Source: Ilex aquifolium
Taxonomy: Eukaryota > Streptophyta > Magnoliopsida > Aquifoliales > Aquifoliaceae
Assembly: GCA_951799425.1 (NCBI GenBank)
Contig: OX637391.1
Coordinates: 25,229,701 to 25,293,700 of the forward strand
DNA length: 64,000 nucleotides
Reading direction: 5' to 3'
The translations under genes were made by a program, and so were the position numbers. The notes beneath the pieces are model-generated. The model searched no databases. It was given only the letters and a program-made list of their open reading frames with translations, and had not been told where the DNA came from. Below, in pieces: positions 6,685 through 64,000 of the stretch (positions are counted from its first letter, which is position 1; each line of letters opens with the position of its first letter).

Positions 6685-8291
6685 CTATTGAGACTTCAAC
6701 ATTGCATTATTTTATAGCTAAAGATATTCACTTTAGGCTTGCTAATGTACTAATTCACTTTACTTAGTATAGTTTTTGTATTAAGCCTTGATTTTGGTGT
6801 TTGCAGGTAAATTGAATATAAAGATTGGGTTTAAGCATTAAAAAGAATGTAAGAAACAAGTTGAGGCTGAGTTTACTCAAGTAGAGATGAAGCTGGGAGT
6901 CTTAGAAGCAAATTAGAAGAAACGAAGAATTCTACTGGTAGGAAGACAAAAGAATGAAGGTTCTACTGGTAGTAGGTGAATTTTACAGGTAGTTGGAGCT
7001 ATAGAAGTTTGGTGCAGAAGTCTTATCGGTAGGTGGTTCACGTTCTACCAGTAGCAAAACTCACAGTACTTTGCACTTTTTCATCAGAGAAGTTCTACAG
7101 GTAGTTAAACATGTTTTACCAGTAGCAAAACTCCCAGTACTTTTATCAGAGAAGTCCTACTAGATGTTCTACCGGTAGCAAAGGTTACAAAAGTTTCAAA
7201 GAATCCATTAGAAAGAGTCCTACCAATAGGTAAAGAATGTACTACTAGCAGGTCGAGGTAGATTTTCACGGGAAGCTTAATAAAAATCCGATCTTGCCAT
7301 ATCTTTTGGGGATTCTCGACCAATCAAGGAAGAAGATATTTTGAGATGAATAGAGATCAAAGATCTAAAGATTTTCCTTCCAAACATTATAAATAGAGAT
7401 CCTTTGGGGAATCAAACCAGAGGCTTAAGAATACGTTTAAGAGCTTTTTCGTTTACCTTTCTTATAAAAGAGTTTTAGGGTTTACTCTACAGAATTTTCC
7501 CTTAAAGTTCAGTTCAGTTCTTTTCTTTTATTGTTCAAGCAATACTTAATTTCAATTGTCGTTACTTCCAAAGCTTTTTCATTTACATTCGGCTTTTCAA
7601 TACAAGCAATCGATTTCAATTCAGTCTTTACTTTTCTACGTGTAATTATGTCTTCTTTTAAGCTTTATGTAATTTTCATTATCATGAGTGAGTAGTTTTC
7701 TTCTGGATGATCTAAGGAAGGAGTCCCAAACCTATGAAGTAGGGTGTATGCCTTAAACTAGGGTTTTAACGTATATGTGATTGATTGAACATGTTATGCT
7801 TTCAAAAACCTAATTGGTATGCATACATCCCTATTATTTGTATGCAGTTAGGCTTGGTACAAATAATTGTGGTGCTTCCTACAACCTTTAGATTACCGAT
7901 TCTTTCATCATAAACCATCTTTCAATTACTACATTAGATCTTTTCAAGTTTTTAGTTAAAAATCATCCATCTGTAGTAGTTTGAATATGAAAGCAGATGA
8001 GTTATAGATTTAAGGTAGAAACTCTTATTCATAGGTGGGACGAATTCTGAAGATTATCCAATTTTTTCATTTATTGAATTTCATTTTCATTAGTAGTTAA
8101 CTCTCAAAATTCTCGAACTCAAAGAGCTTTTTCATTTTATTTTTCATCACCTTAGATTCCAATTCTTTCCTTGAGGAGGCGACCTTGGACTTTTGTTCAA
8201 GTTACTACACGAGACCTTTCTCTTACGCTTGGGAGCTTTCGTGAAAATACAACCCCTTTGGAGGGTAAGCAACACCCTCATCAAGAGCATC
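6685..8291 (+). mobile_element. Old solo LTR-like unit (Athila-type LTR, family C)
   Basis: The 3' half carries the hallmarks of the Athila-type LTRs in this window: ATGAGTGAGTAGTTTTC near 7684, the GAGGAGGCGACCTTGGA block near 8174 and ACGCTTGGGAGC near 8225. CATAC repeats directly at 6680-6684 and 8292-8296. Joining the flanks there restores continuity of the reverse-strand reading, so it looks like a single LTR inserted into the reverse element. The ends next to CATAC are not canonical TG/CA (a TG occurs at 6689), so the exact boundary is uncertain. It holds a decayed palindrome array at 6935-7260. Confidence 0.6.
6935..7260. repeat. Decayed CTACCGGTAG-type palindrome array
   Basis: About nine units resemble CTACCGGTAG, but most have lost the central CG: CTACTGGTAG (two), CTACCAGTAG (two variants), CTACAGGTAG and CTTATCGGTAGG. 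One intact CTACCGGTAG remains near 7167-7176. The pattern of CG to TG or CA is what cytosine methylation and deamination produce, so this is an old relative of the intact arrays elsewhere in the window. Confidence 0.7.
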
Positions 8292-8296
8292 CATAC

Positions 8297-8478: not shown

Positions 8479-10953
8479 TGTGACGCCCCAATTTCCGGGG
8501 GTCCTATATTAACCGTTGATCATCCTTCAACCCGCAGAAGTACCCGTGAATATCGCTCAACCCAACACCACGTCGTTAGCATCCCCTAACTGGGATCATA
8601 GCTCACAATGTAAACCAGATTCAGTTATTCATTGGGCTCAACCAAGATCCAACGTACCATGATTTATATCCTATTATAGTCCATTTACATCATTGGAGGG
8701 AAGGAAAACATAGACCGAAAATAGGGCAAAACAGTTTAAAAATCTGGAAATTCTTGAGAGTGTACCAGTACTGTGTACCGGTACAATATCGTACTGGTAC
8801 TGCGTACCGGTACAGTTTGCTTACTGGAAAGTGCGTACCGGTACACCGTACCGGTACTGCGTACCGGTACACCGTACCGGTACTGCGTACCGGTGCTGTT
8901 TGCCTACTGGAAAGTGCGTACCGGTACCCTACCGTATCGGTACTGCGTACTGGTACTTTCTGCCCAGTTTTGCCTTTTTCAACCGTTTTTCATTTTCAAT
9001 CCATTCCAAACTCATCCAACACATGCATAATGAAGGTTTTCATACTATACAAGGTTAAAAGCAACTCTATTACATTTAATTCCAAAATTTTACATACCAA
9101 AAGCTAAGTTTTCATAATGTTTTACAAAAACTCAAACAAAAGCCACATTTCGGTCTTCTTCATCCTTGGGGCTCGAAATGGGAGCCGTCCGCCGGTGTGA
9201 ACCCCGCACCTGAAATGTTTTTCCCACGAAGGGTGAGCCACACTCAATAGGGTATCTCCTAATGAGGCTACTCCCCAACCTAAATGCATATGAAATGTTC
9301 ACATGCCACAATTCAACAATTCATAACATTCCAAGCAAGAAAGTGCATGCAATGTTGGAATTTGCAATGCCATGCTATGTAATGAGGTGAGACTCACTCA
9401 TGCATATCATCCGAGCCCTTGCTGACTCCTCCACACATGCAAGTGCCAATGTGTACGAATCCGTCATTTATGTTGCACATCAAATGACATTAATCAATCT
9501 AGGGTCTTTATAGGGGTGGATGTTCATGGACTCACACCAAAGGTCACCCAACCTACATGAAATTTACGGACTTCCACCGAAGGTTCCGCGTACACCTACA
9601 CACTTCATGGGCCGAGCCAAAGGAGTGCGTATCCTAATCACCGGGCCTTGCAACCGAGGGATATTCTAGCCCTTCTTGCTAACCCCAACCCTACCAACCA
9701 TGCAAACCGTGAGACTCGGCTAAGTCATCGACCAAGCTTACTCGAGCCCACCCGTCATCCACCAATTGTGGTGTTGACACAACAACCATGCACCCACACC
9801 CACATATGCGATGTTCTCGTGCACAATGCAATGTAATGCCTCATTGCAACAATAATACAACGTTCAATATGCTATGAGTGATATATGAACATTCTCAACA
9901 CATTTCACATATTTCATGGCAAAATTATATCATAAGCATATAATTCCCATAAAACAATTTCCGAGCATGTTGTCACATAATTATGCTATCAACATTTTAA
10001 ATTCTCTAGGCATATATATAAACACATAACATGCCCACAATTCCATAGAACACAAGAATCACATTGGGTATATTTCACATGTCAAATTCTAGAAATCACA
10101 CTTAGCAATTTCTAACTACCAATTCAAGCTAGGATTCATCCTAACCCATTTCAATACCCATTTCACCCAATCTAACAACAATAGGCAAGAGATACACAAC
10201 CTATCATCCCACCCATTTCACAAAAACATTCTAGGTTTGGAATAAACCTTAGTAGGAGGGAACCCTACCTCTTGAAGCGTAAACCCACTTGGTAGACACC
10301 TTCAAGAATCCCTATCTTGCCCAAAATCCTTGATTTCTCCAAGCTCGATTTTGGAAATTCGGTGAAATTCGTCTTTCTTGGTATGATTTTGTAGCCCTTG
10401 GAGAGGAGAACAACTTTTCCTCTTGGCTCGAGTTGATTTGAGCTCCGTGGAGACGAAGATTTTAGAGAGAAGGTGGAGAAAAACCCTAGCTTTCCCTCTC
10501 TTGTTTTCACATTGATCGGCTGAGCAAAAATGGGGAGAAAATCAGATTTTCTCCCCTTTAAATACCCTTTAAACTCTTGGCCCACAATGCGCCACACAGC
10601 CCTTATTTCCCGGGTCCGTTTTAGCCACGAAACGATTAAATTTCGCTTCGGTTCAAGTTCAAAATATTTTTATTTTAACTTGCCGTCATTTATTTCCCAA
10701 AATTTAAAATTTCATTCAGAATTTCGTTTTTGGGTCTCCCGAGGCCCGACCGCCTCGTAAAACGCGAAAAATCTGACTAACTCGGAATTCAATGAAATTT
10801 GACAGGGTAACTAGATTTCGCGAGACGAATCCAACGGTGATGTCCGTTTCATCATCCGAGCTCTAGAAAAATTCAGGTTTACAACCTGTACCATAGTGGC
10901 AAATTACCGTTTTGCCCTTTTTCACAAAAGTTTAAATTTTCTCGGATTTTACA
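8479..10953 (-). mobile_element. Solo LTR, family A, reverse, TSD aatag
   Basis: The LTR runs from TGTGACGCCCCAATTTCCGG at 8479 to GGATTTTACA at 10953, 2475 bp. It is flanked by the 5-bp direct repeat AATAG at 8474-8478 and 10954-10958. There is no internal sequence, so it is a solo LTR. In LTR sense it shows the TTAAATT block at the start and a TTTAAAGGGG-like TATA region near 10555. The Gln/Pro-like leader block and a GTACCGGTAC array (8762-8956) follow near its 3' end. The 110-codon reverse ORF (10265-10597) lies in the presumed transcribed leader and has no recognisable product. Confidence 0.95.
8762..8956. repeat. GTACCGGTAC palindrome array in family-A LTR
   Basis: There are about twelve units of the 10-bp palindrome GTACCGGTAC or near variants (GTACTGGTAC, GTACCAGTAC, GTATCGGTAC). 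Spacers include TTACTGGAAAGTGC and CTACTGGAAAGTGC. The array starts about 280 bp from the LTR 3' end (the left end here). Overlapping ORFs translated through it are artefacts of the repeat (repeated YRY, VPV and TGT). Confidence 0.9.
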
Positions 10954-10958
10954 AATAG

Positions 10959-13514: not shown

Positions 13515-15395
13515 TGATTGATTGGAAACGATGTCTTTCCTAACCCCTAAAATGCTATCCCTCAAATGATGCAATGTATGAGCGGAAGGAAGGATTTCTC
13601 CCCCTTTGGGATAGTGTCAAAAGAAAGGGCAATGAGGAAAGGGAAATGGGATGATGTAGATATGGAATGTGTATGCACAAAAATGCTCCCCAATCGCAAG
13701 GAATCTTTCGTGTGTCGGTGTTTTACTTGGTGGTATTCCAAGTTCGTCTCCTCAGGGAAGGAAAGAGAGTTGTGTGAAAGTGATTTTGGTGAACAAAAGA
13801 GAAAATGTAAAATCTTTTGTTTGAGTTTTGTGTTTGGTTTGTAAATGAAAATGCAAATAAAGCAAGTGTTGGCTAATCCAAAGGGTTCATTCCAATGGGA
13901 ATACCAAATCAACTCAAAGCCTTCCTCCAATTGAGCATGAATGAACGATTGATTCGGGGGAAGCTAGGGATGAGATTGGTGAGTATCTAAGCATAAACCG
14001 TGACTAGGCCTACGGAATATCAAAGGCTCACCAACTCATCCACTCTCAACCCCATCAAACCGAACCATTTGACTCTAAAGGGAGGAATGAAGAAGAGTTG
14101 AAAATGGTATTCCCAAGAGGAATTTTCCCTTGGATTAACCAACTTAAATCCTAGCTACTCATATTAACAATGCAAGACAAGCATAAAGGAAATGGACATG
14201 GAAGGGAAATGGAGCATGGAACTTAACTTACAGCAAGAAATCTAAAGCTATGAAGGAAAAATATGCAATACCCAATATAAAAGCTTGAAATGAAGAAAAC
14301 TTAAATAACAATGGTGAAATGAAGAACATGAAAGTAAACTTGCAATAAACTTGAAAGGAATGACATTAAAGACAATAAATGAAGCTTACAAGGTTCTTAC
14401 ATTAAACTACAAGTGAAAGAGTGGAAGAAAAATGCAAAAACGTCACTTTGAGCACTATTCATCATCTTCCCCCTTGGAGCTTTCTATATCTAATCCTAAG
14501 CTTAGGTAGCCAACTCACTAATACAATGTGTGTGTAATGCTGAATATAATGGTGTGTGGGAGACTTCCAATTTCGTGCATGAGGCTCCCCCTTAGCTGTG
14601 TGCAGACCTCCCATCATAGGGGCCTGAGTTGAAAGCATTGGCAGGCTAGCCTGCAACTCCCCTGGCAGCCCACTTCCCTCTCTCTTTCATTCAATGCCAA
14701 GCCTCCAAAGTCTTCAAAATGTGTAAGAGATGCCTGTAAATGTGTAAGGAAATGTTGGGCTAGGCGTGGGAGAAGTGTAGGTGGGACCCCCAAGCAAGTG
14801 GAGCAAGAAAGAAGTCGTTCTGGGCACTTATGGACGACCTACCAGTAGTGACTACCGGTAGTTATTGGCTACTGGAGTGATAACTACCGGTAGTCATTTG
14901 CTACTGGAGTGCTAACTACCGGTAGGTCTTTCCGGTAGTTGTCTGCTCTGGACCAGTTGTCGTAGAATTGGCATAACTTTTGATCCAACCATCCGATTGA
15001 GCTGAAATTTGGACAAAATATAGAAGACATCCAGATCTACAACTTTCATGTTTTGAACTTTTCCTGATTCTGAGTAGATCATGGCCAAAATGGAGGAAAA
15101 TAAAGGCAGTGCTTCCAAATGATGTGGCTGCTGATGCCCTTGTTCCCAAGCACCAATGCCTTATTGATTTCTTCACTTTTAAGCCTCCAATTCTTCATGT
15201 ATTGTGTCTATGCCTTCACCACTCATCCATCATATTTGCAATGTTATAAAATACATGATTTAAGGTATAAAAACATGCAACATCAAAATATCAACATTAT
15301 TGACAATTTTGGCTAACACTAAGTATTTAAATGCAAAAGTTGAGTTATAATGCATGTAATGAGCCCTTCAAATATGCAATATTATGCGCTCATCA
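13515..15395 (-). mobile_element. 3' LTR of the non-autonomous Athila-like element
   Basis: 1881 bp, TG/CA ends in LTR sense. It carries the shared Athila-type LTR landmarks: GGGGGTCCCACCTACACTTC just after the array, the AAGTTGGTTAATCCAAGGG block, the GAGGAGACGA block and the GATTGGGGAGCA block. Its array (14839-14940) has one more palindrome unit than the partner LTR. ORFs predicted inside (for example 13562-13930 and 14912-15176) are LTR sequence without recognisable products. Confidence 0.92.
14839..14940. repeat. CTACCGGTAG palindrome array
   Basis: The units are CTACCAGTAG, CTACCGGTAG (two), CTACCGGTAGG and a half unit TTTCCGGTAG. They are separated by GCTACTGGAGTG spacers at about 14867 and 14898. 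In LTR sense the spacer reads CACTCCAGTAGC, opposite to that of the related solo LTR at 28074. The array lies about 450-560 bp from the LTR 5' end. Confidence 0.9.
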
Positions 15396-17610
15396 CACCC
15401 CTCAACTTAAGATTTGCTAGTCCCTAGCAAACAAAATGTAAAAGCAAGCAAACAAAAATAAACCTACACTAATTCCGCAATTGCATTTAGCACATGCAAC
15501 AAGCCTTTAAACCCCTAAGTGATCCCTAGTGGACGAGTTTTGTCTCTTGAAGGTTTCTAGTGAAGGTACCTACAAACTTCTTGCAAATATCCAATATTTA
15601 AAGTATATTCCCCTATCTTAACTAGCAATGGGATTTCAATAAAAAAAACTATGTTCAAAACATCCTAACTAAAAACACATGCAACACATTATAGCTTTAA
15701 ATGCTATTCTTGAGTATTCACCTATACATTTCCTTTCAAAACTCGTGTGTGTGTGAACTGAACATGTAATTTAAGCATTTACACAACGGAATTCACATTC
15801 ACGTGGCTATCCAAATTAAGCTTTGATGCAAAAACTCACCAAGGGTTTCTCTCAAAAATGAATAACTCAATGATTATCCTAGCATGCACTCCATGTGTAT
15901 ATGTGAGATAGAATCTTATTCACAAACCAAAATGCTCACATATAATCCAAAAATGAAGCACATGTATACAAATGAAACAACCTTGGCATAATCTCATGAA
16001 AGGAATGCTAGGGCATTAGATAGTAAAATTAACTTCTCTTTTTCTTTAAAAGTATGCATCCCCCATGCTTCTCTAGATCTTTTAGGACTTTCATGGGTTA
16101 TAATGGGGCCTTGGGGTGATGTTGTGGTAAGGGAAACGAAGGATATAGGATAACAAAGAGGGTTGTTCCGAGTGAGAGACATTAATCTTAGAAAAACACT
16201 TCCCTTTTATGGGATTTTGATTTTCACACCATCACCACATCCTTTGTTTCCTTTCTTTCTTTTCCTTTACATTTTTCCCTTTTCTTTTTCTCATTCTTTT
16301 CTTCTTCTCACCCCTTTTCTTCCTTTTCTTGGATTATCAATTTTTTTCTTTCTTTCATTGAACTCTATGCGTTCCAACATCATTCACCCCTTTTTGCTTG
16401 AGTTTCCACACCATACTTCCTTCTTTTGCAATCACTCATTTTTGTTTTAGGAACAACCAAGGTAAGGTAGGTATTTCTTATTTTCTTTGGCTTGGTTCAA
16501 TGTGTGGCATAGAAATGAATTCAATTAAGGCTCAATCATGGCACTAGGGATAAATTTCACAAGAAAAAGGCTTAGGCTCAAAGCATTCAAAAATGGCCTA
16601 AGATCATCTCTAGATAAGCATATGGGAGCATTGTACAATCAAGACAAAGTCAATCAACTACCCAAATACACCTAACCAAAACAAGCATAATGAGATTATT
16701 GAACAAATGTGGAATTTGAAAAATTGTTCCTTGAGTAAATGTAAGTTCCCTCCAAACAAGAATTGGCACTAAAGCTCACACGGGTACTTACTCATCTCCA
16801 CTATTCATGTCAAGCACTCAAATGTGAACTCAATCCGTAAATTGTCCAAATTACACATTCAAGGTGCACAATGGTTGAGTTTGAAAGAAAACACATATGT
16901 GATACTCAAACATAGGATAAACTTCTATAATGTGCTCATGTATTCAAAGTTAAAAATGAAGATCAAGCAATTCACAAATCCCATAACAATTAGGATAGAG
17001 GAATATAGTTCAATATTGAATACTTTTCACAAAAATGGTCAAAAAATTTTAAAATTTTCACATTTCCAACTTATTCTATACAAAAAGTGGTGGAACATGT
17101 AAATGGTGCACCTCACCCCCCAACTTGAACTATGCATTGTCCTCAATGCACAAGGAATCATGCAATGAAAACAATGAAGGTAAAATGGGAAATGAGATAC
17201 CCCCCTTTTTTTTTTTTTATATATAAACATAAAAGAGAAAATGAAACACACAAAGCTCATTTACACCCCCCAACTTAGACTAGAACATGGAGGAGGAATG
17301 CTGGTGATGCCCTCAAAGCAGGTGGAGTAGCATTGCAGAGATTGGGTCTGTCAGGCAAACAGTACCGGTACTGGGTACCGGTACTCAGATTCCAGTAGGT
17401 TTTTAGTACCGGTACCATTTGGTACCGGTACCGAGTACCGGTACTGTTCTGCTTTGTCTGCCAAACTACTCCCGCTGAAACATGCTTCATGTTAAAATCT
17501 AAACTACAATGATACTCACCATTATACTACAATGACATGAAAAATAAAAATATAACAATAAAAGAGATATAACTACTATGTACATGGAAACAAAACAACA
17601 AGGGCTCATG
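15396..17610 (-). other. Non-coding 3' part of the non-autonomous Athila-like element
   Basis: No coding sequence is evident. A polypurine tract (CTTAAGTTGAGGGGTG in element sense, 15396-15411) adjoins the 3' LTR. At 17110-17150 the element-sense sequence TTGAGGACAATGCATAGTTC, followed by AAGTTGGGGGGTGAGGTGCAC, matches a block found at the end of pol in the Athila-like elements here (48880-48930 and 52400-52440). About 16200-16450 is a long pyrimidine-rich tract on the plus strand. A second palindrome array sits at 17361-17445. Confidence 0.8.
17361..17445. repeat. GTACCGGTAC palindrome array inside an element interior
   Basis: Five GTACCGGTAC cores (AGTACCGGTACT, GGTACCGGTACT, AGTACCGGTACC, GGTACCGGTACC, AGTACCGGTACT) surround a TTCCAGTAGG spacer. 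This is the only array found outside an LTR. The element's own LTRs carry a different type, CTACCGGTAG. Confidence 0.9.
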
Positions 17611-18585: not shown

Positions 18586-18588
18586 AAA

Positions 18589-20456
18589 TGATTGATTGGA
18601 AACTATGTCTTTCCTAACCCCTAAAATGCTATCCCTCAAATGATGCAATGTATGAGCGGAAGGAAGGATTTCTCCCCCTTTGGGATAGTGTCAAAAGAAA
18701 GGGCAATGAGGAAAGGGAAATGGGATGATGTAGATATGGAATGTGTATGCACAAAAATGCTCCCCAATCGCAAGGAGTCTTTCGTGTGTCGGTGTTTTAC
18801 TTGGTGGTATTCCAAGGTCGCCTCCTCAGGGAAGGAAAGAGAGTTGTGTGAAAGTGATTTTGGTGAACAAAAGAGAAAATGTAAAATCTTTTGTTTGAGT
18901 TTTGTGTTTGGTTTGTAAATGAAAATGCAAATAAAGCAAGTGTTGGCTAATCCAAAGGGTTCATTCCAATGGGAATACCAAATCAACTCAAAGCCTTCCT
19001 CCGATTGAGCATGAATGAACGATTGATTCGGGGGAAGCTAGGGATGAGATTGGTGAGTATCTAAGCATAAACCGTGACTAGGCCTACGGAATATCAAAGG
19101 CTCACCAACTCATCCACTCTCAACCCCGTCAAACCGAACCATTTGACTCTAAAGGGAGGAATGAAGAAGAGTTGAAAATGGTATTCCCAAGAGGAATTTT
19201 CCCTTGGATTAACCAACTTAAATCCTAGCTACTCATATTAACAATGTAAGACAAGCATAAAGGAAATGGACATGGAAGGGAAATGGAGCATGGAACTTAA
19301 CTTACAACAATAAATCTAAAGCTATGAAGGAAAAATATGCAACACCCAATATAAAAGCTTGAAATGAAGAAAACTTAAATAACAATGGTGAAATGAAGAA
19401 CATGAAAGTAAACTTGCAATAAACTTGAAAGGAATGACATTAAAGACAATAAATGAAGCTTACAAGGTTCTTACATTAAACTACAAGTGAAAGAGTGGAA
19501 GAAAAATGCAAAAACGTCACTTTGAGCACTATTCATCATCTTCCCCCTTGGAGCTTTCTATATCTAATCCTAAGCTTAGGTAGCCAACTCACTAATACAA
19601 TGTGTGTGTAATGCTGAATATAATGGTGTGTGGGAGACTTCTAATTTCGTGCATGAGGCTCCCCCTTAGCTGTGTGCAGACCTCCCATCATAGGGGGCTG
19701 AGTTGAAAGCATTGGCAGGCTAGCCTGCAACTCCCCTGGCAGCCCACTTCCCTCTCTATTTCATTCAATGCCAAGCCTCCAAAGTCTTCAAAATGTGTAA
19801 GAGATGCCTGTAAATGTGTAAGGAAATGTTGGGCTAGGCGTGGGAGAAGTGTAGCTGGGACCCCCAAGCAAGTGGAGCAAGAAAGAAGTCGTTCTGGGCA
19901 CTTATGGACGACCTACCGGTAGTTATTGGCTACTGGAGTGATAACTACTGGTAGTCATTTGCTACTGGAGTGCTAACTACCGGTAGGTCTTTCCGGTAGT
20001 TGTCTTCTCTGGACCAGTTGTCGTAGAATTGGCATAACTTTTGATCCAACCATCCGATTGAGCTGAAATTTGGACACAACATAGAAGACATCCAGATCTA
20101 CAACTTTCATGTTTTGAAATATTCCTGATTCTGAGTAGATCATGGCCAAAATGGAGGAAAACCAAGGCAGTGCTTCCAAATGATGTGGCTGTTGATGCCC
20201 TTGTTCCCAAGCACCAATGTCTTATTGATTTCTTCACTTTTAAGCCTCCAATTCTTCATGTATTGTGTCTATGCCTTCACCACACATCCATCTTAGTTGC
20301 AAGGTTATAAAATACATGATTTAAGGTATTAAAACATGCAACATCAAAATATCAACATTATTGACAATTTTGGCTAACACTAAGTATTTAAATGCAAAAG
20401 TTGAGTTATAATGCATGTAATGAGCCCTTCAAATATGCAATATTATGCGCTCATCA
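18589..20456 (-). mobile_element. 5' LTR of the non-autonomous Athila-like element
   Basis: 1868 bp, close match to 13515-15395 (see that entry for landmarks). It lacks about 13 bp of the palindrome array relative to its partner. The LTR 5' end (right side) is TGATGAGCGCATAATATTGC at 20456. The small ORFs inside are shared by both LTRs and have no recognisable products. Confidence 0.92.
19913..20001. repeat. CTACCGGTAG palindrome array, partner of 14839-14940
   Basis: The units CTACCGGTAG, CTACTGGTAG, CTACCGGTAGG and TTTCCGGTAG are separated by GCTACTGGAGTG spacers. Against the other LTR, one unit is missing and one unit has CCGG changed to CTGG. Array length and content therefore changed after this element inserted. 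Confidence 0.9.
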
Positions 20457-23252: not shown

Positions 23253-24070
23253 TGCTGAGTACATAATGTAGCATGATTTGATATCTCAAACCATTTCTCT
23301 TAGCTTTGTTTATTAGTTATATATTTAGTTTTAGTTAGTTGCGTGTTAAAGAGGAATCCATATAGTTGTAGGTAATTTGATGTAAGGACAACGTTGTACA
23401 TTGATTTTTATGCTTTCGAAGATTTTGGGGTGATATAGGCAAGTCAGAGATGGAACTATGAGCATTGTAGTTAAAATTCAGAAAAACACTAGTTTTACCG
23501 GTAGGTTTTGTACTGGTTCGTCAGGTGCTAGACATCAGACTTACCGGTAGCAGTGAAGTCCTACCGGTTCATCCAAAACATAAACTTTTCTACTGGTTCG
23601 TTGTTAATGTTCTACCGGTAGGTCGTGACCAAAAGGTGTTCTATCGGTTCATCAGAGTAAAACTTCAACGATGACTCCAGTGCTTGAACGTTGATCTTCT
23701 AATCTTTAGGCTATCTTTCTTAAATATTATTGAAGGAAGGTTAGAGACTATTTGGGATAGACTAGGACTCTCCATATTGGCTAACTCTTTGGAGATATTT
23801 TTGGAGATTTTCTAGGAATGAGAGAGAGACTTGAAGATCGTATCTTCCTCTTTAAATGCCAATCCATGGGAGCTCTTCAAAGACATGTTTTCCTCCTGGG
23901 ACTTCCCCAGGGGGTTGCTCTTCTTTGTTTTATTTAGTTTTAGGTTTCAAGCAGAAGTCTTTATTATTATTTTCAATTCCGCTGAATGAGGTACATTATT
24001 TTTTTTATTGTAATTGCTTTTCAATTTTAGTTTCAATACAATAAGGTTTAGGGTTTAGATTTTTTTTTCT
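23253..24070 (+). mobile_element. 5' part of another family-C LTR, truncated by the LINE
   Basis: A new LTR start (TGCTGAGTACATAATG, 23253, or the TG at 23256) resembles the start at 11271. It contains a palindrome array at 23494-23655. It stops where LINE-like sequence and a perfect hairpin begin at 24071. It may be the head of a tandem LTR or of a separate insertion. Confidence 0.55.
23494..23655. repeat. TACCGGTAG / TACCGGTTC array
   Basis: Three TACCGGTA cores (23496, 23543, 23612) alternate with half-palindromic forms CTACCGGTTCATC, TACTGGTTCGT and CTATCGGTTCATC. The recurring GGTTC(G/A)TC extension is a local variant of the spacer. It is intermediate between the intact and decayed arrays. 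Confidence 0.8.
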
Positions 24071-25134: not shown

Positions 25135-25187
25135 AATTAAAAATCTGTTCAGCAAAAAAGGGCCTGTAGAATCCTTAAAGGACAAAT

Positions 25188-28529: not shown

Positions 28530-28597
28530 CGTACCGGAAGGCGTACCGGTACGATTATGCTACTGGAGTTCACAGTACCGGTACGCGTATCGGTATG
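28530..28597. repeat. CGTACCGGTACG array, cut by an LTR insertion
   Basis: The units are CGTACCGGAAGG (a hybrid of two palindrome types), CGTACCGGTACG, AGTACCGGTACGCG and CGTATCGGTATG, with a GCTACTGGAGTT spacer. The inserted LTR starts at 28598, immediately after GTATG, which forms its TSD. Confidence 0.88.
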
Positions 28598-41705: not shown

Positions 41706-41710
41706 GCTAC

Positions 41711-43976: not shown

Positions 43977-43981
43977 TTGTC

Positions 43982-48660: not shown

Positions 48661-48994
48661 TTTGAGGTTCAAATGGTGGAGGAAGAGTTCGTGGGTCCGG
48701 TATCGCTTTCTTTTATCATTTACTTTCCAAGTTAATTTGTTTACTTACTTTCATCTTTGCGTATTTTTCTTTCTTCAAATGTGCAGATTACGGTGTTTTT
48801 GTCAAAGCTCAGTGCGAGGTGCTCTCTAACCCTACTTATCTTTTTAAGTCCATCATTGCATTCTATATATTTTTGTTGCATTGAGGACAATGCATGAATC
48901 AAGTTGGGGTGGGGGGGGGTGAGGTGCACCATTTGTTGGATACACCAAATTTTTGTGGAAATTTTTTGTTGATAATACCATTTTGTGGTGAAAT
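48661..48994 (+). other. 3' untranslated start of element E
   Basis: No gene is evident. The block TTGCATTGAGGACAATGCAT followed by an AAGTTGGGGTGGGGGGGGGT run (48876-48920) is shared with the other Athila-like interiors. It ends at the GAAAT target site of the inserted family-A LTR. Confidence 0.8.
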
Positions 48995-51409
48995 TGTAAA
49001 ACCCGAGAAAATTTAAACATTTGTGAAAAAGGGTAAAACGATAAATTGCCACTACGGTACAGGTTGTAAACCTGAATTTTTCTAGAACTCGGATGACGAA
49101 ACGGACCTCACCGTTGGATTCGTCTCGCGAAATCTAGTTACCACGTCAAATTTCGTTGAATTCCGAGATAGTCGGATTTTTTGCGTTTTACGAGACGAAC
49201 GGGCCCCGGGTAACCCTGTACACGAAATTTTTATAAAGTTTCCAAGTTTGGGGAAATATTAGAGACAAGTTAAAATAAAAATAATTCGAACTTGAACCGG
49301 AGCGAAATTTAGTCGTTTCGGGATTAAAACGGACCCGAAATTAAATAGGACGTGTGGCGAATTGTGGGCCAAGTATTCTAAAATATAAATAGGGGCCTAA
49401 AGTCTGAAAAATCAGACTTCTCCTTCACCATTTCAGCCGGTTTCAGCCGAGAGAAAAGAAGAGAGGGAAAGTGAGAGAAAACTCAACTTCTCTCTACGAT
49501 CTACTCCATTTTAGAGCTCGAATCCACTTGGGCCAAGAACAAAAATTGTTCTACTCGACGAGGGCTACGCGTGGGTACCAAAAACGACGGCTTTCACCGA
49601 ACATTGGGAGGCCGAAAATTTGGAAGTGGAGGATTCAAGCTTGCTTTGAGTTCTAGGAGCTTCCCACGGCGATTCTACACGCTACAAGAGGTAGGGTTCC
49701 CTCCTACTAAGGTTTATTCCAAACCTAGGATGTTTTATGAAATGGGTAGGATGATAGATTGTATATCTCTTGCCTATTGTTGGTAATGTGTTTGAAATGG
49801 GTATTGGAATGGGTAAAGATCAATTCTAATTGGATTGGTAATTAGAAATTTTTAAATGAAATCTCTAGAATTGGGTATATGGGATTGACCTAATGTAATT
49901 CTTGGATTATGTGAATTGTGGGCATGCTATGTGCTTATATTATGCCATGAGAATTAAAGTGTGTTATTACTTGATTTTGTGATGACATGCTTGGGTGCCA
50001 TTCAAGATAAAATGTTGATATATGTATACATGTTATAATATATTGACATTGTAGAGAATTATGAAAACTATATGCTTACGATGTAATTTTGCCATGAAAT
50101 ATGTAAAACGTGATTAGAATGTTCATGTGTTACTCATAGCATATTGAACATGATAATATTGTTGCAATGGAGCATCACATTGCATATGCACGGGAACATC
50201 GCATTTAGTGGGTGTGTGTGCATGGTGGTTGTCTTCACCACGCTTGGTGGATGACGAGTGGGCTCGGGTAATATGGGTCGATGACCTAGTCGAGTCGCAC
50301 GGTTTGCATGGGTGATAGGGTTGGGGTAGCAAGAAGGGCTAGAAAATCCCTCGGGTGAGAGACCCGGTGATTGGATACGCTCTCCGTTGGTATAAGAGTC
50401 CATAAAGTGTGTCGGTGTATGCGGAACCGTTGGTGGAAGTCCATGAATTCCGTGTCGGTTGGGTGCCGTTGGTGTAAGTCCATAAATATCCACCCCAAGA
50501 AAGACCCTAGAATAAAAGGTCATTTGATGTGCAACATCAATGACGGATTGGTACACATTGGCACTTGCATGTGTAGAGGAGCCGGGAAGGGCTCGGTTGA
50601 TATGCATGAGTGGGTCTCACCTCATTCCATAGCATGGCATTGCAAATTCCATCATCGAATAGATTTCCTTGCTTGGGATGTTATTAATTGTTGTTTTGTG
50701 GCATGTGAACATTTCATATGCATATACGTTGGGGAGTAGCCTCATTAGGAGATACCCTATTGAGCGTGGCTCACCCTTTGTGGGAAAAATATTTCAGGTG
50801 CTGGGTTCACACCGGCGGACGGCTCCCATTTCGAGCCCCAAGGTTGAAGAAAGCCGGAATGTGGCTTTATTTTGAGTTTTTGTAAAATTATTATAAAAAC
50901 TTGGTTTTGGTATGTAAATTCATATAAATGTTTGTAATAGAATTTATATGCATCATGTTTTATGGGAAAAACTTCATTAAATATGTGTTGGATGGAAAAG
51001 GATGTGTGTTGAATGGATTGGAAGTGAAAAACAAAGGAAAAAGACAAAAGTGGCAGAATCGTACCGGTACGCGTACCGGTACGCAGAGGTCCAGTGGGCA
51101 TAGCGTACCGGTACGCCCTCCAAATTTTTTGAAATTTTATTTTTTTCTCTTTTTCTTGCCAAACCCTTGGGCTATGCCTTCCTCCCTTCTAATGTTATAA
51201 ATGGACTATAATGGAGTATAAATCATGGTATATTGAATATTGGTTGAACCCAATGAATAATCGAATCCGGTTAACAATTGTGAGTTAAGATCCCGGTTAA
51301 GGGGATACTACTACCGTGGTGTTAGGTTGAGCGACATCCACGGGTATTTCCGCGGGTTGACGGGGTGGTCAACGGTTAATAAAGGACCCCCCGAAATTGG
51401 GGCGTCACA
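48995..51409 (+). mobile_element. Solo LTR, family A, TSD gaaat
   Basis: 2415 bp, from TGTAAAACCCGAGAAAATTT to GGGGCGTCACA. It is flanked by GAAAT at 48990-48994 and 51410-51414. TATAAATAGGGG lies at 49384-49395, followed by an AAGTCTGA / TCAGACTT inverted repeat. The array is at 51060-51115. ORFs within (50134-50607, 50371-50739 and others) overlap on both strands without motifs. Confidence 0.96.
51060..51115. repeat. Short CGTACCGGTACG array
   Basis: Three CGTACCGGTACG dyads are present, two of them adjacent, plus a GTCCAGTGGGC spacer (the reverse form of ACTGGA). It is at the same LTR position as the other family-A arrays. Confidence 0.9.
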
Positions 51410-53405: not shown

Positions 53406-53794
53406 TGTGAAACCCCGGAAAATTTAAACTTTGACGAACAAGGGCAATAGGTGAATTGCCACTTCGGTACTAGTTGAAAAACTGAATTTTTTTAGATCTC
53501 GGATGACGAAACGGATTCCACCGTTGGATTCGTCTCGCGAAATCTAGTTACCACGTCAAATTTCGTTGAATTTCGAGATAGTCGGATTTTTCGCGTTTTA
53601 CGAGACGAACGGGCCTCGGGTGACCCCGTGCACGAAATTTTTATAAAATTTTAAAGTTTGGGGAAATATTAGAGGCAAGTTGAAATAAAAATAATTCGAA
53701 CTTGAACCGGAGCGAAATTTAGTCGTTTCGGGATTAAAACGGACCCGAAATTAAATAGGACATGTGGCCAATTGTGGGCCAAGTATCCTAAAAG

Positions 53795-53830
53795 TATAAA
53801 TAGGGGCCTAAAGTCTGAAAAATCAGACTT
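53795..53830 (+). promoter_or_regulatory. TATA box followed by a conserved hairpin at the expected start site
   Basis: TATAAATA at 53795-53802 is followed by AAGTCTGA AAAA TCAGACTT at 53811-53830, an 8-bp stem with a 4-nt loop. The same arrangement recurs in the 3' LTR (59950-59985) and in the solo LTR (49384-49421). The hairpin overlaps the place 25-30 bp after the TATA box where transcription normally starts. Transcription itself is inferred. Confidence 0.7.
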
Positions 53831-55888
53831 CTCCTTCACCATTCAGCCGGTTTCAGCCGAGAGAAAAGAAGAGAGGGAAAATGAGAGAAAACTCCACCTT
53901 CTCTCTACGATCTACTCCGTTCTAGCGCTCAAATCGACTCGGGCCAAGAACAAGAGTTGCTCTACGCGTCGAGGGCTACGCGTGGGTGCCAAAAACGACG
54001 GTTTTCACCGAACGTTGGAGGGCCGAAAATTTGGAAGTGAAGGATTCAAGCTTGCTTTGAGTTCTAGGAGCTTCCCACGGCGATTCTACACGCTACAAGA
54101 GGTAGGGTTTTCTTCCTACTTAGGTTTATTTCCAACCTAGGAAAGTTATATGGAATGGGTAGGTGTATATATATATGTATCACTTGCCTATTGTGGTTAT
54201 TTGGGTGAAATGGGTATTGAGAATGGGTAGCATGATTTAAATCACATTCTCTAGTTTAATGTACCACTAATGCATTTCATGTGTGGGAAATGGGTACCAA
54301 ATGTGCTAAGCAAGGTTGGTATGAAATGGGTGTATATATTTACTTGTTGGGTAAATTTCATAAAGGAACTTGAAGTGTAGAAAATGGATATGGGAAAATT
54401 GGTAAAGTGAAATTCTAAATGGAATTGGCATTTAGAGGTGGTTGCTTTATAATTCTCTTGGGAGATTATCATATGTGGATATTAAGAAATGGATAGAATA
54501 AATTATATCTTGGTATAATCGTGTAGAAATCACTAGATATGATTTCTTGAGTTTGATGATGAAATTGAGTATATTATATGATTACATGCTTTGGGTGGTT
54601 CGAAGGTGTTGATTAAATGCCTTGGTGAAAATGATGTATTGATGAGTTTGCTATGTTAATTGCATGCTTATGTGATAACATGTTTGAAAATGGTTATTGG
54701 ATGAAATGTTGATATATGCATGCTTGCTATATATTGACAATGTGTTAAATTATGGTATTCATATGCTTATGATATGAAGTACCATGGATATGTGGATTTA
54801 TTGTTGAGTTGTTCATATGGCATTCATACATATTGAACATGTGGAGAAGATGCAAGGGTACATTACATTGCATTCTCATGGGTACATCACATTCATGGTT
54901 ATAAGACATGAATGTGTGTGGGTGAGTTGACATCGCATTCATGGGTCATGGGCATGAGTGTGGGTGTGTGCATAGGTTGTGGATCAAACACCAAATCTTG
55001 GTGGTTGGTATGTGAACTCGGGAAAGTCGGGATCGAAGATCCGACTGAGTTGCACGGTTGCATTGCATAAGTAAAACTTGTGTCGGGTAGAGCAAGTAGG
55101 GCTAGACACTCCCTCGGGTGAAAAACCCGGAACCACTTGGTTCAGTCATTTGACCAGCGGTGAAATACCAGAAAAGTGGCATGGCCCACGGAGCCAGTGG
55201 TGCGACTCCAAAATCCGTTGCCCAAAAAGACACAAGATTTTGTTGTATAAAAACACCCATTCAATGGGTAGCCTCTAACAATGATTTGATTTTTTATAAA
55301 GACATAACTTTTATCTCAAACGATCATTGGGAGGGTTTCTCCGTCAATAGACGGGTTCATACACGTTGGCTTTTGCATTGTGTTGTGTGAGTCGGGGAAG
55401 ACTCGGGATAAGGTGCGTGAGTGAGTTCCATCTCATATCATGGCATGACATAGCATAGCATGGTAGCTTTCTAACATTGAAGTATATACTCTTGTTGGAT
55501 TGGTTGATGCTTGTTGATTGTTGCATGTGCGCATTTCATATGCACTTAGGTTGGGGAGTAGCCTCTGTAGGAGGATATCCTATTGAGCGTGGCTCACCCT
55601 TCGTGGGACAACATTTCAGGTGTGGGTTTTGCACCGGTGGATGGCTCACTTGGAGAGCATCAAGCATGAAGGGGGCCGGCTTGTGGCCTTAGTTTGAGTT
55701 TTGTAAAACCTTTAACAAAATTCCATTTTGATGTATATATATTATGGAATGAATTGTGATAGAGCTTGTATGAGTTGTGTATTATATGGAAAAATCTCAT
55801 TAAACATGTGTTGGATGAGTTTGGAGTGTATGGGGTAGCTTTAAGGATGGTTTGGAGGGGAAAGAAATCCATTTTTTGCTCACAGTCT

Positions 55889-56288
55889 GAAAACCTACCG
55901 GAAGGTGTATGTCGGCCTTCCGGAAGGTTTTGTTAAAAACCCTGGATGCCTTGTTCACAGCTAATACCTTCCGGAAGGTTTTGCCCACTGGAATGAACCT
56001 TCCGGAAGATTTTAGCTATTGGAGTAAAACCTACCGGAAGAACTTGTCTACTGGAATGGACCTTCCGGAAGGTTTTGCCTTGGGTTTCTATTTGACTGCC
56101 AAAGTCTTCCGGAAGGTTTTGTTTTCTAGAATGAACCTTCCGGAAGGTTTTGGCTACTGGAATGAACCTTCCGGAAGGTTTTTGCTACTGATGTCGTCCT
56201 TCCGGAAGTTCTTGAAATTGATCCATTTCATTTAACTGTTCTTTCAGCGACCTTCCGGTAGGTGTATGTCGACCTTCCGGAAGGTTTT
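55889..56288. repeat. AACCTTCCGGAAGGTT palindrome array in a family-A LTR
   Basis: About 13 units are present. They include perfect CCTTCCGGAAGG (eight or more), hybrids ACCTACCGGAAGGT and ACCTTCCGGTAGGT, and partial CCTTCCGGAAGTT. The spacers are GCCCACTGGAATGA, TAGCTATTGGAGTAAA, TGTCTACTGGAATGG, TGGCTACTGGAATGA, and a longer one resembling TTGCCTTGGATTTC...ACTGCCAAA of element D. A tail segment CATTTAACTGTTCTTTCA and a TGTATGTCGACC link are also shared with D. Confidence 0.95.
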
Positions 56289-56523
56289 TCCAAAAATTTG
56301 AAATTTTCAAAATGCTTAGCCATGCTTTTGGGCTTTGTTTTCTTTGGGTCCTATGAAATAAATGGACATAAATAGAGGTATAATTGACCTTGTGGATGGT
56401 AAATCCGATTAAAAGCATGTGAATGACGTGGTGTCGGGTTATACGACTATCACGAGTATTTCCGCGGGTTGACGGATGGTCAACGGTTAATAAAGGACCC
56501 CGGAAATTTGGGGCGTCACAGCT

Positions 56524-56535
56524 TGGTATCAGAGC
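56524..56535 (+). other. Primer-binding site (tRNA-iMet type)
   Basis: TGGTATCAGAGC lies three bases after the LTR. It is complementary to the 3' end of plant initiator tRNA-Met. The match ends after 12 bases. Confidence 0.92.
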
Positions 56536-59560: not shown

Positions 59561-62126
59561 TGTGAAACCCCGGAAAATTTAAACTTTGACGAACAAGGGC
59601 AATAGGTGAATTGCCACTTCGGTACTAGTTGAAAAACTGAATTTTTTTAGATCTCGGATGACGAAACGGATTCCACCGTTGGATTCGTCTCGCGAAATCT
59701 AGTTACCACGTCAAATTTCGTTGAATTTCGAGATAGTCGGATTTTTCGCGTTTTACGAGACGAACGGGCCTCGGGTGACCCCGTGCACGAAATTTTTATA
59801 AAATTTTAAAGTTTGGGGAAATATTAGAGGCAAGTTGAAATAAAAATAATTCGAACTTGAACCGGAGCGAAATTTAGTCGTTTCGGGATTAAAACGGACC
59901 CGAAATTAAATAGGACATGTGGCCAATTGTGGGCCAAGTATCCTAAAAGTATAAATAGGGGCCTAAAGTCTGAAAAATCAGACTTCTCCTTCACCATTCA
60001 GCTGGTTTCAGCCGAGAGAAAAGAAGAGAGGGAAAATGAGAGAAAACTCCACCTTCTCTTTACGATCTACTCCGTTCTAGCGCTCAAATCGACTCGGGCC
60101 AAGAACAAGAGTTGCTCTACGCGTCGAGGGCTACGCGTGGGTGCCAAAAACGACGGTTTTCACCGAACGTTGGAGGGCCGAAAATTTGGAAGTGAAGGAT
60201 TCAAGCTTGCTTTGAGTTCTAGGAGCTTCCCACGGCGATTCTACACGCTACAAGAGGTAGGGTTTTCTTCCTACTTAGGTTTATTTCCAACCTAGGAAAG
60301 TTATATGGAATGGGTAGGTGTATATATATATGTATCACTTGCCTATTGTGGTTATTTGGGTGAAATGGGTATTGAGAATGGGTAGCATGATTTAAATCAC
60401 ATTCTCTAGTTTAATGTACCACTAATGCATTTCATGTGTGGGAAATGGGTACCAAATGTGCTAAGCAAGGTTGGTATGAAATGGGTGTATATATTTACTT
60501 GTTGGGTAAATTTCATAAAGGAACTTGAAGTGTAGAAAATGGATATGGGAAAATTGGTAAAGTGAAATTCTAAATGGAATTGGCATTTAGAGGTGGTTGC
60601 TTTATAATTCTCTTGGGAGATTATCATATGTGGATATTAAGAAATGGATAGAATAAATTATATCTTGGTATAATCGTGTAGAAATCACTAGATATGATTT
60701 CTTGAGTTTGATGATGAAATTGAGTATATTATATGATTACATGCTTTGGGTGGTTCGAAGGTGTTGATTAAATGCCTTGGTGAAAATGATGTATTGATGA
60801 GTTTGCTATGTTAATTGCATGCTTATGTGATAACATGTTTGAAAATGGTTATTGGATGAAATGTTGATATATGCATGCTTGCTATATATTGACAATGTGT
60901 TAAATTATGGTATTCATATGCTTATGATATGAAGTACCATGGATATGTGGATTTATTGTTGAGTTGTTCATATGGCATTCATACATATTGAACATGTGGA
61001 GAAGATGCAAGGGTACATTACATTGCATTCTCATGGGTACATCACATTCATGGTTATAAGACATGAATGTGTGTGGGTGAGTTGACATCGCATTCATGGG
61101 TCATGGGCATGAGTGTGGGTGTGTGCATAGGTTGTGGATCAAACACCAAATCTTGGTGGTTGGTATGTGAACTCGGGAAAGTCGGGATCGAAGATCCGAC
61201 TGAGTTGCACGGTTGCATTGCATAAGGAAAACTTGTGTCGGGTAGAGCAAGTAGGGCTAGACACTCCCTCGGGTGAAAAACCCGGAACCACTTGGTTCAG
61301 TCATTTGACCAGCGGTGAAATACCAGAAAAGTGGCATGGCCCACGGAGCCAGTGGTGCGACTCCAAAATCCGTTGCCCAAAAAGACACAAGATTTTGTTG
61401 TATAAAAACACCCATTCAATGGGTAGCCTCTAACAATGATTTGATTTTTTATAAAGACATAACTTTTATCTCAAACGATCATTGGGAGGGTTTCTCCGTC
61501 AATAGACGGGTTCATACACGTTGGCTTTTGCATTGTGTTGTGTGAGTCGGGGAAGACTCGGGATAAGGTGCGTGAGTGAGTTCCATCTCATATCATGGCA
61601 TGACATAGCATAGCATGGTAGCTTTCTAACATTGAAGTATATACTCTTGTTGGATTGGTTGATGCTTGTTGATTGTTGCATGTGCGCATTTCATATGCAC
61701 TTAGGTTGGGGAGTAGCCTCTGTAGGAGGATATCCTATTGAGCGTGGCTCACCCTTCGTGGGACAACATTTCAGGTGTGGGTTTTGCACCGGTGGATGGC
61801 TCACTTGGAGAGCATCAAGCATGAAGGGGGCCGGCTTGTGGCCTTAGTTTGAGTTTTGTAAAACCTTTAACAAAATTCCATTTTGATGTATATATATTAT
61901 GGAATGAATTGTGATAGAGCTTGTATGAGTTGTGTATTATATGGAAAAATCTCATTAAACATGTGTTGGATGAGTTTGGAGTGTATGGGGTAGCTTTAAG
62001 GATGGTTTGGAGGGGAAAGAAATCCATTTTTTGCTCACAGTCTGAAAACCTACCGGAAGGTGTATGTCGGCCTTCCGGAAGGTTTTGTTAAAAACCCTGG
62101 ATGCCTTGTTCACAGCTAATACCTTC
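59561..62126 (+). mobile_element. 3' LTR of element A1, interrupted
   Basis: It is nearly identical to 53406-55971. I find differences at about 60003 (CTGG for CCGG), 60060 (TTTACG for TCTACG) and 61227 (GG for GT). It stops in the middle of the third palindrome unit, at CCTTC, where the reverse LTR at 62127 begins. The first two array units (62047-62082) are present. Confidence 0.95.
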
Positions 62127-64000
62127 TGTGACGCCCCAATCTCCGGGGGTCCTATATTAACCGTTGACCACCCGTCAACCCGCGGAAATAACCATGGATG
62201 TCACTCAACCTAACACCACGGTAGTAGCATCCCCTTAACCGGGATCTTAATTCACCATTGTTGACCGGATTCGATTATTCATTTGGGTTCAACCAATATT
62301 CGATATACCATGATTTATACTCCATTTACATCATTGGAGGGAAAGGAAACGTAGATTGAAAATAGGGCGAAGCAGTGTGAAAATCTGAAAATTTTGAAGA
62401 GAGTACCGGTACCCAGTACCGGTACCATTCAGTACCGGTACCCGGTACCGGTACCCGGTACCGGTACTATCAACCCACTGGAAAGGGGGTACCGGTATCC
62501 AGTACCGGTACCATTCAGTACCGGTACCCGGTACCGGTACTGTCAACCCACTGGAAAGAGGGTACCGGTGTCCAGTACCGGTACCATTCCGTACCGGTAC
62601 CCAGTACCGGTACTGTCAACCCACTGGAAAGAGGGTACCGGTGTCCAGTACCGGTACCATTCCGTACCGGTACCCAGTACCGGTACCATTCAGTACCGGT
62701 ACCTAGTACCGGTACTCTCTGCCCAGTTTTGCCATTTTCAACCATTTTTCCTTTCCAATCCATTCAAAACCCTTCCCAACTCATCAAATACATGTTTGAC
62801 AAGGATTTCCATATAAAACATGGTTGATACAAGTCCTATTACAATTGATTCCATACATTTACATATCAAAATGGAATTCTTTTCAAAAGCTTTTACAAAA
62901 CAACAATAAAAGCCACAAGTCGGCTTTCTTCAACCTTGGGGCTCGAAATGGGAGCCGTCCGCCGGTGTGAACCCCGCACCTGAAATGTTTTTCCCACAAA
63001 GGGTGAGTCACGCTCAATAGGGTATTTCCTAATGAGGCTACTCCCCAACTTATATGCATATGAAATGTTCACATGCCACAAAACCACAATTCATAACATT
63101 CCAAGCAAGGAAATATATTCAATGATGGAAATTGCAATGTCATGCTATGGAATGAGGTGAGACTCACTCATGCATATCAACCGAGCCCTTCCCGGCTCCT
63201 CTACACATGCAAGTGCCAATGTGTACTAATCTGTCATTGATGTTGCACATCAAATGATTTTTCATTCTAGGGTCTTTCTTGGGGTGGATATTTATGGACT
63301 TACACCAACGGCACCCAACCGACACGGAATTCATGGACTTCCACCAACGGTTCCGCGTACACCGACACACCTTATGGACTCTTATACCAACGGAGTGCGT
63401 ATCCAATCACCGGGTCTCTCACCCGAGGGATAGTCTAGCCCTTCTTGCTACCCCAACCCTAACAACCATGCAAACCGTGCGACTCGACTAGGCCATCGAC
63501 CCGTCTTACTCGAGCCCACTCGTCATCCACCAAGCGTGGTGAAGACAACCACCATGCACACACACCCACTAAGTGCAATGCTCCCGTGCATATGAAATGT
63601 GATGTCCCATTTCAATAATATTACAATGTTCAATATGGTATGAGTGACATATGAACATTTACAATACATTTCTCACACTTCATGGCAAAATCATATCATA
63701 AGCATATAATTTCCATATTTCCTTACAATGTCAATATATCACAAGCATGTATATATATCAACATTTAATCTTAATCAACACCCAAGCATGTCATCACATT
63801 ATCAAGAGATAACATACTTCAATTTCAAGCACAAGATAAACACATAGCATGCCCACACTTCATATAGCCCAAGAGTCACATTGGGTTAATTTCATATACT
63901 CAATCCTAGAAATTTCATTTAGAAACTTCTAATTACCAATCCAATTAGAATTGATTTCAACCCATTTCACCCAATTTCACAACCATAGGCAAATGACATA
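62127..64000 (-). mobile_element. Family-A LTR, reverse, inserted into the palindrome array of A1
   Basis: It starts TGTGACGCCCCAATCTCCGG and follows the order of 8479-10953 to the window end. It is incomplete on the right, where about 0.6 kb more is expected. The five bases before it are CCTTC, the left half of a CCTTCCGGAAGG unit; the matching duplication lies outside the window. The ORFs inside (62893-63087, 63164-63406 and others) carry no recognisable domain. Whether it is a solo LTR or the end of a complete element cannot be told. Confidence 0.93.
62402..62716. repeat. Large GTACCGGTAC array with 73-bp higher-order repeats
   Basis: I count 19 cores, 17 of them TACCGGTA and two TACCGGTG. 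A 73-bp unit of four cores ending in ACTGTCAACCCACTGGAAAG is repeated about three times. This is the largest array in the window. Translations through it (62394-62816 and 62331-62763) are repeat artefacts. Confidence 0.95.

Follow-up and report, generated by a model that had tools for sequence, protein, structure and literature searches.

A 64-kb stretch of the Ilex aquifolium genome (contig OX637391.1; 40% G+C; hereafter the window) contains seventeen arrays of short palindromes centred on CCGG, fourteen of which lie in the long terminal repeats (LTRs) of two Ty3/gypsy retrotransposon families, one chromovirus-like (F1) and one Athila-like (F2). As judged from alignments, the array module appears to have moved between the chromovirus-like and the Athila-like LTRs at least once. 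We put at about even the chance that each array works as a cis-regulatory module of the plant LTR, bound by a dimeric, sequence-specific protein, a function that we infer from the core-specific symmetry, the paired arms, the near-constant place, the CpG kept in F2 arrays and the clustering. Of the remaining arrays, one is internal to an element, while two, both decayed, lie in unassigned sequence. Because two of the fourteen LTR arrays are partner copies (F2a' and F1f), they stand for at most 12 separate insertions, few independent events in one window. Each LTR array has 1–16 perfect palindromes of at least 10 bp. The arrays, named after their LTR copies, are as follows:

55885..56292, plus strand: F1e array, CTTCCGGAAG type, 9 palindromes; aligns colinearly with F2d and with a stretch of the F2c array
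62040..62126, plus strand: F1f array, a remnant with one palindrome of at least 10 bp left; copy of the F1e array (55889)
62400..62720, minus strand: F1b array, GTACCGGTAC type, 16 palindromes
8762..8957, minus strand: F1a array, GTACCGGTAC type, 7 palindromes
41305..41440, plus strand: F1d array, GTACCGGTAC type, 6 palindromes
51058..51118, plus strand: F1c array, GTACCGGTAC type, 3 palindromes
19900..20000, minus strand: F2a array, CTACCGGTAG type, 2 palindromes
14830..14945, minus strand: F2a' array, CTACCGGTAG type, 3 palindromes
17360..17446, minus strand: array inside the F2a/F2a' element, between its LTRs, GTACCGGTAC type, 5 palindromes
28525..28600, plus strand: F2b array, GTACCGGTAC type, 2 palindromes
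30085..30345, minus strand: F2h array, GCTACCGGTAGC type, 43-bp unit, 6 palindromes
33250..33405, plus strand: F2g array, AAAACCTACCGGTAGGTTTT type, 5 palindromes
34920..35090, plus strand: F2c array, CTTCCGGAAG type, 3 palindromes
36920..36950, plus strand: F2e array, GTACCGGTAC type, 2 palindromes
42400..42665, plus strand: F2d array, CTTCCGGAAG type, 4 palindromes
6935..7250, unstranded: decayed array of CTACYGGTAG-like units that lies upstream of a TATAAATAG, in unassigned sequence
23494..23650, unstranded: decayed, CTACCGGTAG-like array in unassigned sequence

CCGG-centred palindromes in the window

Perfect palindromes of at least 10 bp (10–22 bp) are centred on 77 of the 177 CCGG sites in the window, whereas the other 15 palindromic four-base cores, counted in the same way, form them at only 0.95–4.2% of their sites. 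The arrays reported in the initial annotation, which was made from the sequence by itself, are therefore real. Dinucleotide shuffles of the window (n = 100) yield on average 1.7 such CCGG palindromes and never more than 6; since the shuffled windows average 91 CCGG sites against 177 in the real one, the per-site rate across cores is the fairer control. Inside the seventeen arrays, 76 of 96 CCGG sites form such palindromes, compared with 1 of 81 elsewhere. The placed F1 and F2 LTRs, which make up 46% of the window, hold 70 of the 77, including a single palindrome at 39700 with a GGCCGGCC core that belongs to no array, and the other seven are located at 7169 (one), at 17360–17445 (five) and at 23612 (one).

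The initial annotation had listed all seventeen as arrays of perfect palindromes confined to LTRs. Most of them hold up, yet the ones at 6935, 23494 and 62047 each retain only one perfect palindrome of at least 10 bp and those at 19913, 28530 and 36923 just two, and the 17361 array, unlike the fourteen in F1 and F2 LTRs, is internal to the F2a/F2a' element. An LTR at 21885, labelled Tat-like there and described as free of arrays, indeed has none, with zero CCGG palindromes of at least 10 bp between 19987 and 23611.

Symmetry extends into the arms. In 16 arrays with 93 CCGG sites between them, the arms pair at position 1 in 84 cases, at position 3 in 79, at position 4 in 44 and at position 5 in 42, whereas the highest values reached in 500 shuffles are 70, 53, 39 and 36, respectively. 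Tandem periods range from 6 to 83 bp, and the 59 palindrome spacings are mostly 13, 16, 31–32 or 43–44 bp, with an uncontrolled helical phase strength of 0.50 at 10.5 bp and 0.60 at 10.0 bp. A second motif, CYACTGGA, absent from the initial annotation, has 21 of its 23 window occurrences inside arrays, in 12 of the 17; it is sense in F1e, F2b, F2c, F2d, F2h and the internal array and antisense in F1a, F1b, F1c, F1d, F2a and F2a'. It is unlikely to be a mere deaminated local palindrome, as C[CT]A is kept in GTAC arrays too.

An array module common to two LTR lineages

Comparison of five F1 with nine F2 LTRs gives 54 BLAST hits in 9 of the 45 pairs, all of which vanish (E 1e-3) when the arrays are masked, while the masked LTRs still give 80 and 114 hits within the families. 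This upholds the earlier proposal that the arrays occur in two lineages whose LTRs do not otherwise match. The F1e and F2d arrays are colinear, aligning at 81% over 234 columns with the non-palindromic spacers included and the order kept, and F1e aligns with F2c at 90% over 92 columns, again with colinear spacers. Their scores, 239 for F1e–F2d and 139 for F1e–F2c, compare with at most 90 and 67 when the spacers alone are shuffled. One unmasked F1e–F2d hit (72%, 358 columns) begins about 80 bp ahead of the F1e array, in a flank that gives no hit once the arrays are masked. The colinear spacers of F1e and F2d therefore argue for transfer between the lineages and not convergence alone, and because of such spacers we reject pure convergence as the whole account of F1e with F2c and F2d. 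The module would more probably have passed from F2 into F1, because the other F1 arrays (F1a, F1b, F1c and F1d) are of the GTAC type while F2g has AAAACC arms in common with F2c and F2d.

Across 40 pairs of an F1 array with an F2 or the internal array, 8 score at least 50, and 7 of these beat all 100 spacer shuffles. F1c–F2b scores 61 against at most 53 with shuffled spacers, and the 17361 array scores 70, 104 and 71 with F1a, F1b and F1d against at most 69, 95 and 66, all four pairs on opposite strands. Strong exchange is limited to one F1 array, F1e: the other 32 pairs score below 50, and F1b–F2e is no better than its shuffles. Convergence may suffice for arrays of the GTAC type, which exceed their spacer shuffles by little or, for F1b–F2e, not at all.

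The arrays also turn over within a family. The two flanks of the array agree at 88.7% and 86.6% between F2a' and F2e, as against 65.9% in the array itself, and despite these similar flanks F2a' has CTAC and F2e GTAC arms. The partner LTRs F2a and F2a' differ in the array region by 2 substitutions in 120 columns (CCGG in F2a' versus CCAG in F2a, and one at the array edge) plus one 13-base gap, and outside it by 30 substitutions and no gap in 1757 columns; the change of length is thus confined to the array. Neutral minisatellites, in which slippage and unequal exchange amplify the units, template switching perfects the palindromes and ectopic recombination spreads them, would account for this sole gap of the alignment, for the range of tandem periods, for hybrid units such as CTACCGGAAG and GTACCGGAAG, and for the persistence of an F2 LTR without the array region (F2f). 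However, a general palindrome-perfecting process should also hit other cores, which stay at 1–4%, and it would not be expected to produce the near-constant place in each family or the CpG kept in arrays of the CpG-poor F2 LTRs described below, though a recent spread of arrays could leave high CpG. We consider minisatellites a credible but somewhat unlikely explanation.

Carrier LTRs and the place of the arrays

The window resembles a nest of plant retrotransposons, with RVT_1 and rve pol pieces, a CCHC gag, long interspersed nuclear element (LINE)-like pieces and a "putative plant transposon protein" (PF20167) among the matches; Pfam scans covered 28 of its 104 open reading frame (ORF) pieces. 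Fifteen LTR copies, six F1 and nine F2, were placed by self-comparison, template BLAST and reading of the sequence, and a short F1 fragment at 3419–3609 was left out of the count. Several LTR ends are approximate, and the BLAST ends used in the distance and alignment work are at most 9 bases off ends read later, an error that carries over to the distances by no more than that. The LTRs and primer sites are as follows:

53406..56520, plus strand: F1e, 3.1-kb LTR with TGTGA...TCACA ends, the 5' copy in a chromovirus-like element; 99.9% repeat with 59560–62126 (F1f)
56524..56535, plus strand: F1 primer binding site after the F1e LTR, exact match to the iMet string
59561..62126, plus strand: F1f, 3' LTR partner of F1e, cut within an array palindrome by the F1b LTR
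62127..64000, minus strand: F1b LTR, sitting in the F1f array and continuing past the window edge
8479..10954, minus strand: F1a LTR, ends approximate
39257..41706, plus strand: F1d LTR, ends approximate
48994..51409, plus strand: F1c LTR, ends approximate
18589..20456, minus strand: F2a, 5' LTR of an Athila-like element; 97.6% repeat with 13515–15404
13515..15395, minus strand: F2a', 3' LTR partner of F2a, 3' end approximate
18585–18573, minus strand: F2 primer site, exact Asp string, after the F2a LTR
36411: Asp primer string with one mismatch, after the F2c LTR
about 28073–28605, plus strand: F2b LTR, abutting an inverted F2 LTR and ending in its own array
about 30526 to 28606, minus strand: F2h LTR
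about 33010–34663, plus strand: F2g LTR
about 34677–36407, plus strand: F2c LTR
about 36463–38290, plus strand: F2e LTR, flanks 87–89% identical to F2a'
about 42163–43978, plus strand: F2d LTR

Downstream of F1e, the iMet site is followed by a CCHC gag and, further on, an H2C2 integrase piece, in a broken internal region of about 3 kb. RVT_1 and rve pieces of the F2 lineage are located between F2d and F1c, and no RVT_2 (copia) match occurs among the 28 ORF pieces scanned. The F2c and F2d LTRs are 88% identical and might form one element's pair. Membership of F2 in Athila agrees with its Asp primer site, which is of the non-chromovirus type, and the iMet site of F1 fits Tekay and other chromoviruses, although most copia lineages use it too, so that it is not diagnostic. 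The names Tekay (F1) and Athila (F2) lean further on protein motifs typical of these lineages. Judged by such motifs, the pieces in 47428–48993 are presumably Athila-like, and a reverse transcriptase at 11336–12067, not placed in F1 and 28% identical to the reverse transcriptase piece at 47428–47952, is presumably of the Tat/Ogre type. In published work, tRNA-Met primes most chromoviruses, and non-chromoviruses use Asp, not Met (PMC6317226).

Elsewhere in the window, a LINE-like element at 24565–28070 (DUF4283, a weak Exo_endo_phos match and RVT_1) is broken by the F2b LTR, and a 23-bp tandem repeat (AGATTAGGATTTGTTTCCTTAGT and kin) occurs at 268–366, 1355–1525 and 2271–2388, one of them inverted. 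A search with the gag yielded 81 relatives, and scans of the window for tRNAs and Rfam families gave no matches.

Within each family the arrays keep a near-constant distance to the LTR 3' end: with ends approximate in both families, it is 235–295 bp in all five F1 copies with an intact 3' end, and among seven F2 copies it is 1263–1343 bp in six and 1503 bp in the other. F1c, F1d, F1e and F1f have a TATA box (TATAAATAGGGG or TATATATAGGGG) at LTR offset ~390; it is missing there in F1a, and the F1b LTR is cut by the window edge. In F2, the CpG observed/expected ratio is 0.81 in the arrays compared with 0.31 in the LTR outside them.

Eight chosen array stretches, from 8 of the 17 arrays, all fold well below their shuffles (z scores of -4.1 to -9.2), while four control stretches from LTRs give z scores of -2.5 to +0.4. 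Units that pair with one another in RNA or single-stranded DNA, with hairpins in array transcripts feeding small-RNA silencing or affecting reverse transcription, would agree with this folding and with the array lying downstream of the TATA box in four F1 LTRs, and an excess of small RNAs over palindrome clusters is reported in a maize study (PMC10760457, citing earlier Sirevirus work). Repeated palindromes of any kind fold strongly, however, a purely structural role would not call for an invariant CCGG core, and we regard this explanation as improbable.

The F1b LTR is nested in the array of the same-family F1f LTR at 62126–62127, inside a palindrome (ACCTTC then TGTGACGCC). If palindromes were hot spots for insertion or recombination of LTR elements, this insertion would be a case in point, as would F2b, which ends in its own array against an inverted LTR, and an insertion survey finds a slight palindrome preference for all elements and for Athila (PMC6911290). 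The same survey, however, finds no preference in nested insertions (5.2 versus 5.3 bp, p 0.50) or for Tekay (p 0.61), and LTRs are not common targets in it (PMC6911290). The other LTR insertions in the window fall outside arrays (F2f in F2h, F2c past the F2g primer site and F2e past the F2c primer site), and the constancy of the arrays in their carrier LTRs is left unexplained, making an integration or recombination target a very improbable account. As to the nesting itself, F2c begins 13 bp past the first base of the F2g primer-site stretch (34664–34677) and F2e about 53 bp past the first base of that of F2c (36411–36464); the primer-site stretch of Athila-like elements is perhaps a preferred nesting spot.

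Proposed function and known counterparts

Under the regulatory reading, a dimeric protein would read two inverted half-sites (GTACC, CTACC or CTTCC) that join at CCGG, with CYACTGGA between the palindromes as perhaps a second site. Clustered sites would favour cooperative binding, by which transcription from the LTR might be driven or protected, as has been suggested for Sirevirus boxes. The arrays gain and lose repeat units, switch arm type as a block and, by a route that is conjectural, appear to travel between elements, one clear case being that of an Athila-like and a chromovirus-like LTR.

Several observations sit uneasily with this picture. Arm positions 6–8 pair no more than shuffles and position 2 varies too little to tell, and the arm-pairing shuffles give no probabilities, because the sites within an array are related. 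In untruncated copies the F1 array is 1.7–2.1 kb downstream of the offset-390 TATA box. A second TATAAAT follows the array by 72–106 bp in four of five F1 LTRs, F1e being the exception; a single F1 LTR can contain as many as 12 TATAWA, and the stretch after the array is alike by descent. A TATAT-like box follows the array in three of seven F2 LTRs (F2a, F2a' and F2e) and not in F2c, F2d, F2g or F2h. The CpG difference in F1 is small (1.02 in arrays versus 0.80 outside), and F2f, the sole placed LTR without an array, lacks the whole array region. As for candidate binders, a heat-shock-element reading of TTCCGGAA was dropped, since the GTAC and CTAC types do not fit that motif, and a literature search on a LOB-domain reading of TCCGGA had nothing relevant among the papers listed.

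The initial annotation knew of no described class of element with such a structure, but one exists: Sirevirus LTRs carry palindromic boxes of the CGG-CCG signature with element-specific arms (PMC2829016). Among 13 Sireviruses there are at least 8 and up to 32 boxes per element, with the signature in 12 of the 13 (PMC2829016, Table 3). In the LTR the boxes mostly start 200–400 bp in and form CpG islands upstream of the TATA box, and nine elements have extra copies upstream of the envelope gene; these RM boxes are called Sirevirus-specific and absent from classic retrotransposons, and no single binding factor could be named for them in 2010 (PMC2829016). Our literature search likewise found no named protein that binds such palindromes. 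The arrays described here resemble RM boxes in being clusters of short palindromes in LTRs, with arms that differ by element, raised CpG in both families and a copy in an internal region. Their carriers, however, are not Sireviruses (Ty1/copia) but Ty3/gypsy elements, F2 having the Asp site with RVT_1 and rve and F1 the CCHC gag with H2C2 integrase; the CCGG core is contiguous rather than CGG...CCG; one array is a colinear module common to two lineages; and the F1 array sits close to the LTR 3' end, a long way past the first TATA box. We read the arrays as a module of this known kind, here carried by two Ty3/gypsy lineages and, as the alignments suggest, exchanged between them; the colinearity of F1e with F2d and the switch of arm type between similar flanks are new. 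Among the titles and abstract openings listed by our literature search, none names arrays of CCGG palindromes for the LTRs of Athila or Tekay elements.

Tnt1 (Ty1/copia) has LTR boxes that are short symmetric or repeated activator sites, a likeness by description and not by sequence. Box I of Tnt1 is cited as symmetric (PMC2829016). There is a parallel for such motifs turning up in unrelated kinds of element: structured Helitron regions of maize have as their commonest motif the main palindrome of Copia elements (PMC10760457). The Retand repeats between pol and the 3' LTR recall the internal array at 17361, but are family-specific and outside LTRs, and "palindrom" occurs there twice, just in a cited title (PMC11963269). 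Similar arrays may also exist in other genomes. One GTAC array, translated and compared with proteins (484 candidates), finds the short metagenome proteins P0082 (E 3e-5) and P0083 (E 2.5), which read like translated GTACCGGTAC-type arrays (QYRYPVPG...). One CTTC array treated alike has 11 candidates, none of which fits, and a single query (8700–9000) has no match in the plasmid collection. In viral contigs, GTACCGGTACNNNGTACCGGTAC is found in one contig and CCTTCCGGAAGGTTTTG in four, three stretches having one palindrome and one having eight scattered over 13 kb. In a phage contig (L001:4222-4406; terminase, RecE-like exonuclease), an ORF with matches to replication-initiator families, among them an O-like one, contains eight GTACCGGTAC palindromes; these are perhaps initiator-binding repeats, a similar array in an unrelated setting.

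VANDAL elements are DNA transposons, and an anti-silencing target of the VANC/VANDAL style offers a further explanation, in which an element or host protein binds the tandem motifs and strips methylation, motif and protein co-evolving. The block change of motif type between related copies, the clustering of short motifs in noncoding DNA and the CpG kept in F2 arrays are what such a target would show, and the VANDAL21 targets are also tandem repeats of dense, short noncoding motifs that vary jointly between related copies (PMC5735166). Theirs, however, are arrayed in a single orientation and have a known element-encoded binding protein, VANC21, and "palindrom" is absent from the main text of that paper (PMC5735166). 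The Pfam scans of 28 ORF pieces yielded no candidate protein, though no search aimed at VANC was made, and cross-lineage sharing fits an element-specific protein poorly, so that we rate this explanation as decidedly improbable.

Returning to the reading of the array as a protein-bound regulatory element, a bolder version, which we think unlikely, would make the arrays exchangeable specificity cassettes: a few half-site types (GTACC, CTACC and CTTCC) of a dimeric host or element protein family would govern LTR activity, unrelated lineages would swap whole arrays to change or escape the regulator, and the array would evolve apart from its element. The arm-type variants in similar LTRs, F2a' and F2e, would make a good natural test for a protein that reads the palindromes. 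Should arrays like the Sirevirus boxes prove recurrent in Ty3/gypsy lineages and be passed from one to another, the control regions of LTRs would partly evolve as common modules, and not solely along the phylogenies of the elements that carry them.

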